A DNA stretch of 64,000 bases from Gemmatimonadetes bacterium SCN 70-22 (lineage in GTDB: Bacteria; Gemmatimonadota; Gemmatimonadetes; Gemmatimonadales; Gemmatimonadaceae). Made by a program: the position numbers and the translations under genes. The notes beneath the pieces were generated by a model that saw nothing but the letters and a program-made list of their open reading frames with translations, ran no database searches and was not told the DNA's origin. The DNA lies in assembly GCA_001724275.1 (NCBI GenBank), contig MEDZ01000029.1, positions 1 through 64,000 on the forward strand, written 5' to 3'. Each line of letters opens with the position of its first letter. Within the stretch, counting starts at the first letter, position 1. Positions 36,771 to 39,355 of the stretch are shown one piece after another.

Positions 36771-36956
36771 ATGCCGCACTTCCGGACCGCCGCGCTGCGC
36801 GGTGCGCTCGTCGCCGCCACGGTCGCGGCACCCGCCTCCGCCCAGCCGCCGCGCGTCGAGGGGAGCGGCGAACGCGCAGGCGTTCGCCATCCCACCGTGT
36901 GCACCTTGGGCCACCGCACCCCCTTCGGCGGCGATGACGGGGCGACGAGCGAGTGA
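36771..36956 (+). CDS. Tiny secreted ORF overlapping the polymerase start
   Basis: This encodes 61 residues. The first 25 (MPHFRTAALRGALVAATVAA then PASA-Q) are a good Sec leader. The 36-residue remainder (PPRVEGSGERAGVRHP, then TVCTLGHRTPFGGDDGATSE in sequence) is polar with one Cys and no recognisable fold. Its TGA overlaps the GTG start of the polymerase gene as GTGA, so translation could be coupled. No clear Shine-Dalgarno precedes the ATG. It might be the truncated 5' part of an old secreted-protein gene that now serves as a leader cistron. The rest of 36595-36952 holds no other feature I can support. Confidence 0.4.
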   Translation: MPHFRTAALRGALVAATVAAPASAQPPRVEGSGERAGVRHPTVCTLGHRTPFGGDDGATSE

Positions 36957-39355
36957 CTCGATCGCGCGACGACTGGTTGTGGGGATGGGATGACACGCCG
37001 GGCATCGTCTCGGTGTGGGGCGAGGCCGACGGGCGCATCACGCTCTGGCGCCGACTGCCCGACGGCGGCGAACTGGTGCGCGAATCGGTGGCCTTTCGAC
37101 CGTGGCTCCTCGTTTCCCACCTGGAGGACGTGCGCCACCTGGGCGACCGGCTCGTCCCGTCGGGCGGCGCGATTCCGCGCCGGGGGCGCGGGCCCGATGC
37201 GGTGACGTGGCGCGAACTGGACGGCGCGGGTGAGCTGCGCTACCTGCTGCGCGCCCGGAGCCTGGCGACGCTGACGAACGCGGTGCTGCACGGAGCGTCC
37301 AGGCGCCTGGGGCATCCCCTGCGACACGTGCGCGAACTGGGGGACGGGGCGTTGCTCCTCCTCCCGCCCGAGGAGCAATACCTGGTGGCGACGGGGCGCA
37401 GCTACTTTCGCGACCTCCCGTTCGAGCGGCTGCAACGCCTGCAGGTGGACCTGGAGACGACGGGACTCGACCCGGGACGCGACCGGATCTTCATGGCCGC
37501 GGTGCGGCTGCCGTCAGGGGCAACGAGGCTGCTCGAGGCGCCGACGGTCGACGACGCCGGCGAGGCGGCGCTCATCCGGCAGCTGGTGGCGACGATCGCC
37601 GCCGCCGACCCCGACGTCATCGAGAACCACAACCTGCACGGTTTCGACCTCCCCTTCCTGGCCGAGCGCTCGCGGAGACTTCGCGTCCCGTTGGCGCTGG
37701 GGCGCATCGGCGCCCCGGGCCTTCGCGAGCGGGCGGCCATGCGCGGCGCCATGGCCAGCGGCGCCGCGGCAGGCGGTGCCACCCGGCAGCGCATCCGGTA
37801 CGTGATTCCCGGGCGCGAGCTCATCGACACGCTCGACGCCGTCCGGCGGCACGACTTCTCGTCGCGCGACCTGCCGGGCCACGGCCTCAAGGCGGTGGCC
37901 CGGCATTTCGGGCTGGCGCGCGACGACCGGGTGGAGATCCGGGGCGACCGCATCTTCGCCGTCTACCAGCAGGACCCCGGCCGAGTGCGTCGTTATGCGG
38001 CCAGCGATGTCGAGGAGGTCGAGGGGCTCGCCCGCCTCCTGGGCGGGGCGGCCTTCGCCCTCGCCCGCATGGTGCCGCGCCGATACGAGCGCGTGGCCGA
38101 CGCGGGTGCCGCCACCGGCGTCATCGATCCGCTCCTGGTGCGCGCCTACCTGCGCGCCGGCGTGGCCCTCCCGGCGCATGCGCCGGCGTCGCCCATCGAG
38201 CACACCGGCGCCGCGTTGCACCTGTTCGCCGCCGGGGTCGCCCATCGCGTGGTCAAGGCCGACGTGGCCTCGCTGTACCCGTCGCTCATGCGCGCCTATC
38301 GCATCGGCCCGGCGCGCGACCACCTGCGGGCGCTCCTCACCCTCGTCGACGCCCTCGTGACCCAGCGACTGGAGGCCAAGGCCCTGGCGCGGCAGGCCCC
38401 GGCCGGGTCGGCCGAACGCTTCACCCACGAGGCGGTATCGGCGGCGATGAAGATCGTCGTCAACTCCGCCTACGGATACCTTGCGGCTGGCGGAGGCCTG
38501 ACCCGGTTTGCCGACGTGCGGGCGGCCAACGAGGTCACGCGGCGGGGGCGCGAGCTGCTCGAGCTCCTGTGCCGCGAGCTGGCGGCGCGCGGCGTCACCC
38601 TCCTCGAGGCCGACACCGACGGCGTCTACTTCGCCGTCCCCGAGGGATGGCGCGAGGACGACGAGCGGCGCGTGGTCGCCGAGGTCGCCGCCCTCCTCCC
38701 GCCACGCGTGCAGCTGGAGTTCGAGGGGCGCTACGCCGCCATGCTCTCGCACGAACCCAAGAACTACGCCCTCCTCACCTACGCCGGGACGCTCCACCTG
38801 CGCGGGGTCGCCTTCCGCTCGAGCCGTACCGAGCCCTTCGCCATGGACTTCCTGCGACGTGCCATCGCGGCGCTGCTTCGCGGCGACGTCGAGGGGGTGC
38901 GCGCCGAGTACCTGTCGACGGCGGCGCGCCTGCGTGAGCGCCGGTACGAGACACGCGAGGTGTCGTCCCGCGTCCGCCTCACCAAGTCGCCCGCCGAGTA
39001 CCACGCCGTGCGTGACCGGCGGCGCGAACTGGCGTACGAGGCGATGCTCGCCAGCGGGCGTGCGACCTGGAACGTGGGCGAGCGCGTGCGGATCTATCGC
39101 ACCGCCACGGGACACGGGGGCGTGGTACGCGAGCACGACGCCGACGAGCACGCCCCTCCCGACCCGCGCGACTACGACGTGGCGCACTACCAGCGCCTGC
39201 TGCGCGAGACGTATGCGGCGCGGCTCGCGCGCGCCTTCACCCCCGGCGACTTCGCCACGGTCTTCGCCGACCCCGAGCAGCCGTCGCTGTGGAGCGGCGC
39301 ACTGGCTGGGGTGCGCCCGATGTTGGCGCCGGTGCGACCGGCACGCGCATACTAG
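36953..39355 (+). CDS. polB: Family B DNA polymerase with 3'-5' exonuclease domain
   Basis: This encodes 800 residues from GTG 36953. The exonuclease domain is intact: ExoI Asp166/Glu168 in DLETTG, ExoII Asp232 in NHNLHGFD and ExoIII Tyr348/Asp352 in YAASD. The polymerase domain has motif A Asp437 in KADVASLYPS, motif B Lys500/Asn504/Tyr507-Gly508 in KIVVNSAYG, motif C Asp554/Asp556 in ADTDGVYF and the KxY element in PKNYALLTY. All catalytic residues are therefore present. The length resembles E. coli Pol II and archaeal PolB. No helicase, terminal protein, primase, Cas1 or repeat termini adjoin it, so it looks chromosomal, perhaps for repair or lesion bypass. The start overlaps a tiny ORF by GTGA. 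Confidence 0.92.
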   Translation: MTRSRDDWLWGWDDTPGIVSVWGEADGRITLWRRLPDGGELVRESVAFRPWLLVSHLEDVRHLGDRLVPSGGAIPRRGRGPDAVTWRELDGAGELRYLLRARSLATLTNAVLHGASRRLGHPLRHVRELGDGALLLLPPEEQYLVATGRSYFRDLPFERLQRLQVDLETTGLDPGRDRIFMAAVRLPSGATRLLEAPTVDDAGEAALIRQLVATIAAADPDVIENHNLHGFDLPFLAERSRRLRVPLALGRIGAPGLRERAAMRGAMASGAAAGGATRQRIRYVIPGRELIDTLDAVRRHDFSSRDLPGHGLKAVARHFGLARDDRVEIRGDRIFAVYQQDPGRVRRYAASDVEEVEGLARLLGGAAFALARMVPRRYERVADAGAATGVIDPLLVRAYLRAGVALPAHAPASPIEHTGAALHLFAAGVAHRVVKADVASLYPSLMRAYRIGPARDHLRALLTLVDALVTQRLEAKALARQAPAGSAERFTHEAVSAAMKIVVNSAYGYLAAGGGLTRFADVRAANEVTRRGRELLELLCRELAARGVTLLEADTDGVYFAVPEGWREDDERRVVAEVAALLPPRVQLEFEGRYAAMLSHEPKNYALLTYAGTLHLRGVAFRSSRTEPFAMDFLRRAIAALLRGDVEGVRAEYLSTAARLRERRYETREVSSRVRLTKSPAEYHAVRDRRRELAYEAMLASGRATWNVGERVRIYRTATGHGGVVREHDADEHAPPDPRDYDVAHYQRLLRETYAARLARAFTPGDFATVFADPEQPSLWSGALAGVRPMLAPVRPARAY

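Follow-up and report, generated by a model that had tools for sequence, protein, structure and literature searches.

The main cluster of bacterial family B DNA polymerases (PolBs) has been split into three groups: G1 (Pol II, with GWN in its Exo II motif), G2 (PolB2, with a degenerate exonuclease) and G3 (EpsilonN-like, with a glutamate in motif C) (Kazlauskas et al. 2020, PMC7544198). In that account the motif C glutamate marks PolEpsilonN, B10 and G3, GWN marks Pol II, and the group, named EpsilonN-like in 2020, has been linked to the eukaryotic replication enzyme Pol epsilon. PolB2 is described as having lost its exonuclease site and as belonging to an iRadA-PPB2 operon (Timinskas et al. 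2025, PMC11791011; PMC7544198). G3 is reported to be the second most abundant bacterial PolB group, to have intact exonuclease and polymerase sites and a clamp motif, and to occur in all Chlorobi species of the set studied; the same source calls it experimentally uncharacterised (Timinskas et al. 2026, PMC12926913).

Here we compare with these enzymes the product of polB, a gene in a 64,000-nucleotide stretch of DNA from Gemmatimonadetes bacterium SCN 70-22 (positions 1 to 64,000 of contig MEDZ01000029.1), which we call the window. Motifs, predicted fold, a clamp-type motif, clade, patchiness and incongruent distances form the observed basis of the reading that we favour and hold to be reasonably likely: the product is a G3 (EpsilonN-like) proofreading polymerase, tethered to the clamp and accessory rather than replicative, from a subclade shared with Deinococcus megaplasmids, and its gene is a solitary, horizontally moving cargo. 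The first-pass annotation, made from the DNA letters, had missed the published group that covers such enzymes (PMC7544198, PMC12926913).

A complete family B DNA polymerase

The open frame runs on the plus strand from a GTG at 36953 to a TAG ending at 39355, encodes 800 amino acids and is a real gene. Its GC content at the second and third codon positions (0.52/0.91) is typical of called genes in the window, and that at the first position (0.79) is the highest among the window genes listed. The product has Pfam matches, all above cut-off, to DNA_pol_B (6.4e-11), DNA_pol_B_exo1 (5.3e-8) and RNase_H_2 (1.5e-8), and it matches phrog_262 at 1.7e-38. PADLOC matches (homing endonuclease, DEDDh) fall on its polymerase core and exonuclease. 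To place the catalytic residues we used an alignment of 51 rows, comprising the window protein and 50 others that are 27-36% identical to it; 'invariant' below refers to these rows.

36953..39355, plus strand: polB, family B DNA polymerase of G3-like (EpsilonN-like) kind as judged from sequence, 800 amino acids, GTG start, TAG stop
37442..37465, plus strand: Exo I region QVDLETTG (D166, E168), both residues invariant
37622..37660, plus strand: Exo II region ENHNLHGFDLPFL (N227, F231, D232), without the GWN tryptophan of Pol II-like enzymes
37994..38008, plus strand: Exo III, Y348-x3-D352, DEDDy type, invariant
38261..38290, plus strand: motif A, DVASLYPSLM; D437, S440, L441, Y442 and P443 invariant
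38366..38380, plus strand: fingers, R472-x3-K476, invariant
38450..38476, plus strand: motif B, K500-x3-N504-x2-Y507-G508, invariant
38606..38623, plus strand: motif C, E552-A-D554-T-D556-G557; D554, T555, D556 and G557 invariant, E552 nearly so
38759..38767, plus strand: KxY motif, K603-N604-Y605, invariant
39278..39292, plus strand: C-terminal beta-clamp-type pentapeptide QPSLW (Q776-W780), from a motif search in the loci of the phylum

Exo I-III and polymerase motifs A, B, C and KxY, by which family B is recognized, are thus all present, and D166, E168, N227, F231, D232, Y348, D352, D437, K500, N504, Y507, G508, D554 and D556 are invariant. An AlphaFold model of the product has a full-length PolB fold (pLDDT 85.9, pTM 0.83). 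Archaeal PolBs resemble it best in structure (Foldseek, 6isg, E 1.2e-32), and a second structure search (VIA) gave Z 29.8 over 685 residues with a root-mean-square deviation of 3.5; Pol epsilon does not appear in the 50 matches listed for either search, an outcome that carries no evidential weight. Sequence and model together predict a complete bifunctional proofreading polymerase, in keeping with the first-pass annotation, which had called it a complete family B enzyme. It is present in single copy, with no second PolB found in the 4.70-Mb assembly.

Placement among the bacterial PolB groups

The Exo II sequence of the window protein is ENHN and its motif C sequence is LLEADTDG. It therefore carries the motif C glutamate of G3 (E552) together with intact exonuclease and polymerase sites and, as a sequence motif, the C-terminal beta-clamp peptide (QPSLW). 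In a careful tree of 27 rows it lies in a subclade of six Gemmatimonadota-type and four Deinococcus plasmid rows with support of 100/100. A split supported at 100/99 divides this subclade, other G3 proteins, and the Nostoc-phage and Chroococcidiopsis rows from Pol II and archaeal B3; the branches within this set are long. Given these motifs, this tree and the low Pol II score described below, we file the window protein as G3-like in a distinct subclade; by sequence it fits a further member of an already named group. No published description of the subclade was found among the listed matches on bacterial or Gemmatimonadota PolB and on G3 or Deinococcus, with supplements and most subscription papers outside that search; these sequences may already be known to those who wrote the G3 papers.

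Two points favour the idea that polB encodes an ordinary Pol II (G1) orthologue: the NCBIfam Pol II models are the best named matches (6.2e-25), and publications refer to the Deinococcus homologues as Pol II (PMC2669436, PMC3314630). E. coli and Salmonella Pol II are likewise family B enzymes with DEDDy proofreading, and the Salmonella row ends in a clamp-type QLGLF. However, the NCBIfam equivalog score is 87.6 bits against a cut-off of 570, identity is only ~24-25%, and Pol II has GWN in Exo II and DTDS in motif C where the window protein has ENHN and DTDG, the latter with a glutamate ahead of it. Forcing Pol II into the subclade costs 24.7 log units, with a borderline approximately unbiased (AU) p of 0.0498. 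The first-pass annotation had named placement inside the E. coli Pol II orthologues as the result that would overturn its view; in the 27-row tree Pol II forms a separate branch, and we regard orthology with it as extremely improbable.

Two other known types were considered and rejected. PolB2 (G2) is also a bacterial family B enzyme, but it has no exonuclease site, whereas that of the window protein is intact, and the gene neighbours differ; neither the degenerate exonuclease and single motif C aspartate of G2 nor its iRadA-PPB2 operon is seen in the window protein and its ten scanned neighbours. A protein-primed or casposon PolB is not indicated either, as DNA_pol_B, DNA_pol_B_exo1 and RNase_H_2 are the only Pfam families matched at E values up to 1.

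The window protein resembles the other G3 branch in its exonuclease and polymerase architecture with an N-terminal part, its intact sites, its motif C glutamate, its C-terminal clamp-type motif and its scattered occurrence in bacteria, but it is only 27-36% identical to the 50 rows of that branch. It also differs from the Chlorobi enzymes in lacking synteny with the origin. In Chlorobi (L056 3034-12236, L055, L063, L069 and others), G3 polB lies between mnmG and dciA-recF-dnaN-dnaA, beside the replication origin region; among 80 loci, the mnmG family is found near polB in 30 and the dnaN family in 21, and Pfam backs the assignment in L056. The PolBs of Nostoc/Anabaena phages and of a Chroococcidiopsis plasmid are on the same side of the tree, away from Pol II and B3, yet are only 26-28% identical over 55-60% of the protein and branch outside G3 plus the subclade. 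The Chroococcidiopsis thermalis plasmid, pCHRO.01 (L044 1897-11120), is conjugative and carries its PolB alongside its own dnaN, dnaX and holA.

A predicted clamp-docking peptide

A strict clamp pattern, Q-x-[SDPATGL]-[ILMF]-[FW] in the last 70 residues, occurs in 34 of 36 loci of the phylum, the window included, and the remaining two tails read QLRLF and QLPLV. The bodies of the proteins contain no instance in 25,766 residues. Three of four Deinococcus tails have QPGLF. The motif here is Q-type (QxSLF/W). In the other G3 branch, by contrast, even a looser Q-type pattern is absent from the final 75 residues of all 79 full-length proteins; 20 tails of that branch that were inspected have mostly LF pairs, such as DLFGF. 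We predict that QPSLW is a beta-clamp docking peptide of this Q-type.

Patchy distribution and horizontal spread

A protein search places subclade PolBs in 41 of 298 genomes of the phylum, that of the window included, representing 19 of 119 genera and three families. Among plasmid records 17 matched, 10 of them from Deinococcus, and nine of those ten are full length at 43-48% identity. A scan of genome contigs found at least 562 relatives; the best 80 of these, ranked by likeness to a Salinibacter phage protein, are mostly from Bacteroidetes, Rhodothermales, Chlorobi, Ignavibacteria, Verrucomicrobia, Planctomycetes/Scalindua and Entotheonella. Among 30 members of the family that are at least 90% complete, genomes with polB are larger: the 13 that have it reach a median of 4.7 Mb and the 17 that lack it one of 3.6 Mb (p 1.6e-4, kinship ignored). 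Six less complete members, three of them polB-positive, were dropped.

Protein distances argue for transfer. We queried 30 genomes and kept 27, dropping two without an rpoB match (G054, G254) and one with a partial match (G194). The mean PolB distance is 0.77 between families f1 and f6 and 0.84 within f1, compared with 2.00 and 0.46 for rpoB; the correlation of PolB with rpoB distances is -0.07 overall and 0.31 within f1. Because PolB distances do not track those of rpoB, transfer between families, and hence horizontal transfer of polB, is likely. The pattern suggests that this polymerase gene acts as mobile cargo, apparently passing between bacteria that are only distantly related and plasmids of radiation-resistant Deinococcus.

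The surroundings of polB are not conserved. The first-pass annotation had proposed synteny across related genomes as a check: same-genus G001 does keep both the Met-zincin at the left and the right-hand neighbour family, but G002 does not, and flank sharing ends at G001. A conserved operon was sought and rejected, since, of 25 loci, at most 7 share any one family at a distance of up to seven genes from polB, and the top two (7 and 6 loci) are broad kinase and permease families. Likewise, for 69 adjacent genes at 36 loci, the commonest Pfam family matched 3. In the neighbour clustering the gene caller missed polB in 2 of 40 loci (L198, L209), and L143, L194 and genes shorter than 100 amino acids were omitted. 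The gene is probably a solitary mobile cargo among genomes and plasmids.

Whether polB is instead the replicase, present or former, of a mobile element, captured by a chromosome or still carried by phages, must be weighed at this point. Its patchy presence and horizontal spread, the plasmid-borne Deinococcus relatives and the wider G3 relatives in Salinibacter and Nostoc/Anabaena phages would all suit such an origin. However, a Pfam scan of ten genes between 29225 and 46249 found no replication or mobile gene beside polB, no phage gene is among the 25 of 84 neighbour families listed, and, with an active site retained at 63-80% identity, the gene is not decaying. Together with the phage-like contigs considered below, this makes the element-replicase explanation unlikely. 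The first-pass annotation's suggestion of an old capture from a mobile element thus holds as far as horizontal spread and plasmid-borne copies go, but finds no mobile gene among the ten neighbours, and the phage-like contigs look like host DNA next to a phage-like cluster. Its view of polB as isolated and of family B polymerases as patchy in bacteria is borne out here, and polB is not a Pol II orthologue. It had also placed polB in a chromosomal setting, which is not proven: the window belongs to a contig of 80,125 bases from an 84-contig draft, and those Deinococcus relatives that were found are on plasmids.

Phage-like contigs with polB

On four IMG/VR contigs, PolBs 64-67% identical to the window protein lie beside terminase genes; these PolBs group as a single clade within the Gemmatimonadota-type radiation. 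The terminase, portal and capsid genes were recognized by PHROGs on L222 and by similarity on the other three. Among the four, PolBs are 82-87% and terminases 79-84% identical, and the spacer between them is partly common; this like divergence is what phage carriage would give. Despite this, the flanks speak against polB being phage-borne. Beyond polB, both L222 and L223 carry an ankyrin-type gene, which Pfam confirms for L222 and not for the short piece on L223. We kept 80 loci of 561 related terminases, and polB is present in only 4 of the 29 with more than 900 bp upstream, with three more partial copies in shorter loci. Of 14 listed terminase loci that lack polB, 9 show by eye an asparagine synthase gene immediately ahead of the small gene that precedes terL, an identification backed by Pfam for L286. 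These flanks make it more likely that polB belongs to the host and adjoins a host-integrated phage-like cluster, and the contigs are not proof of phage carriage.

The terL-portal-major capsid protein-tail cluster recurs on IMG/VR contigs L221-L224 and L240-L317, many of which are 16-17 kb long and begin exactly at terL or close to it. Genes of host type, asparagine synthase for example, lie to the left of the cluster, which looks like an integrated or gene-transfer-agent-like element. Within the phylum, related terminases occur in 6 of 298 genomes, all as weak matches. A repeat, sought in viral contigs only, gave 1 match; going by repeat and ankyrin types, an acidobacterial host is our guess.

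Proximity to Ku and other repair genes

At least 4 of the 41 polB-positive genomes (G015, G030, G019, G127; three genera) have Ku no more than 4 kb from polB, where a simple model expects ~0.09. In G019 (L154), LigD is beside Ku and polB, and clustering finds LigD homologues in L146 and L147. Ku occurs in 30 of 41 genomes with polB and 143 of 257 without it (p 0.04, kinship ignored, and assuming that both counts share one set of 298). These counts could point to a polymerase for non-homologous end joining, partnering Ku and LigD in double-strand-break repair. But Ku was not found in the genome of the window or in 10 further polB-positive genomes, and the L154 LigD has its own primase-polymerase domain, and we consider such an end-joining enzyme improbable.

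A more far-reaching reading would be that a horizontally roaming, clamp-tethered EpsilonN-like polymerase with proofreading constitutes an accessory pathway for double-strand-break and gap repair in larger-genome bacteria (Gemmatimonadota, Deinococcus megaplasmids and others), sometimes paired with Ku-LigD, and that the desert Deinococcus 'Pol II' is its first genetically studied member. We put this forward tentatively and regard it as doubtful.

Other repair-type genes were seen near individual copies. In G030, polB adjoins a gene (L147 11602-14472) for a UvrD-type helicase that also contains an RNase_T exonuclease domain. On plasmid pDAETH-2 of Deinococcus aetherius (L042), polB lies amid dinB, HU, NucS-domain, UvrD-helicase and ung genes in a repair-rich region.

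Deinococcus relatives and a predicted role in repair

The Deinococcus genes published as PolB or 'DNA polymerase II' (D. deserti Deide_1p00180, D. gobiensis DGo_PC0151) are in the subclade of the window protein, and published Deinococcus genetics therefore bears on it. Plasmid and length led us to equate Deide_1p00180 (765 aa) with DEIDE_RS13570; DGo_PC0151 was assigned to a gene of plasmid P3 by plasmid name only. The two plasmid genes are 47-48% identical to that of the window over nearly the full length and carry a QPGLF clamp motif; they differ from it in residing on megaplasmids, whereas the window copy is on an 80-kb contig, and in being named Pol II in print. D. gobiensis has a second, partial homologue on another replicon. 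On its plasmid P3 (L039 5292-5954), a gene for a Gam-family host-nuclease inhibitor is directly upstream of polB. Placing these genes in a G3-like subclade ties G3 to existing mutant and transcript data and to tractable strains.

These data bear on a possible role as a mutagenic translesion polymerase that acts after damage, like Pol V, DnaE2 or PolB2. D. deserti PolB has been listed among putative translesion synthesis polymerases (PMC2669436), D. gobiensis polB rises 2.0-fold after UV (PMC3314630), and PolB2 and Pol II have been implicated in translesion synthesis (PMC11791011, PMC12926913). However, the exonuclease and motif C residues of the window protein are intact, unlike those of PolB2, and its own genome already has two IMS-domain (Y-family type) loci. 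In addition, UV mutagenesis is reported to be retained in a D. deserti polB mutant (PMC8072749), which by analogy argues against a main role in mutagenic bypass; we judge such a role quite unlikely.

What we favour is a real, patchily distributed and probably mobile accessory polymerase that would carry out accurate, clamp-tethered gap filling in repair. The C-terminal QPSLW peptide would dock on the beta sliding clamp; primer extension would fall to the palm (D437, D554, D556) and the trimming of misinserted ends to the DEDDy exonuclease (D166, E168, D232, D352). The predicted outcome is accurate gap filling or restart of synthesis during DNA repair, including that of double-strand breaks, rather than mutagenic bypass. 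We infer the enzyme activity, clamp binding, repair role, and direction and route of transfer from the features described above. The first-pass annotation had suggested a lineage-specific repair polymerase; polB is indeed clade-specific and patchy, but the clade extends to Deinococcus plasmids and four IMG/VR contigs, and repair is likewise a prediction here.

Several observations weigh against this reading. In its placement, the subclade is sister to the G3 branch of Chlorobi and Salinibacter phages at 88/81 only, and a larger quick tree left the deep order unsettled. A plain sequence search finds PolB chains of P. abyssi (1.5e-24) and E. coli Pol II (4.4e-13) well before Pol epsilon (0.0082); because archaeal PolB and Pol II outscore it, the Pol epsilon link rests on the motif C glutamate and the published group, and our trees held no eukaryotic PolE sequence. 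The clamp pattern was defined after the tails had been viewed. As for transfer, the f6 rpoB rows are partial and divergent, and AU tests on the PolB tree do not reject monophyly of f1 (p 0.54) or f2 (p 0.47), or the pair G134 and G232 (p 0.71). They reject only the rpoB-supported set of G000 (the genome of the window), G002, G030 and G174 (p 0.007), which was picked after viewing the trees. In terms of function, D. deserti polB is reported to be transcribed with no UV induction (PMC2669436), Ku is missing from the window's genome as noted, no repair operon is seen among the ten window neighbours, and a search for SOS control with five simple LexA-type patterns found no site in 41 distinct polB upstream regions.

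The locus and its upstream region

Eight of the ten neighbours scanned have a Pfam match and two have none. The types represented are DinB-fold, beta-lactamase-type, amidase, Met-zincin, LytTR regulator, histidine kinase, HtrA-type protease and Ser/Thr kinase. Two further features lie upstream of polB.

36771..36956, plus strand: tiny 'secreted' open reading frame overlapping the polB start as GTGA, judged not a gene
36867..36888, no strand assigned: perfect inverted repeat of 9 bp with a 4-base loop, 64 bp ahead of the GTG, -17.2 kcal/mol

The first-pass annotation had treated the GTG start and the GTGA overlap as special. Neither G001 nor G002, both of the same genus, has the tiny frame ahead of polB, and the best match to the frame, 40% over 30 residues in G002 (E 2.6e-4), is away from polB; we therefore do not treat the frame and its overlap as features, and the GTG start and tiny frame carry no meaning.

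The genome of the window has three matches to the LexA DNA-binding domain, two of them strong (LexA and IMS loci are on G000 C4, C15 and C65); the regions upstream of the two strong matches were inspected and yielded no operator. No clear dyad is shared by the 41 polB upstream regions. The inverted repeat at 36867-36888 is a possible operator or leader hairpin.

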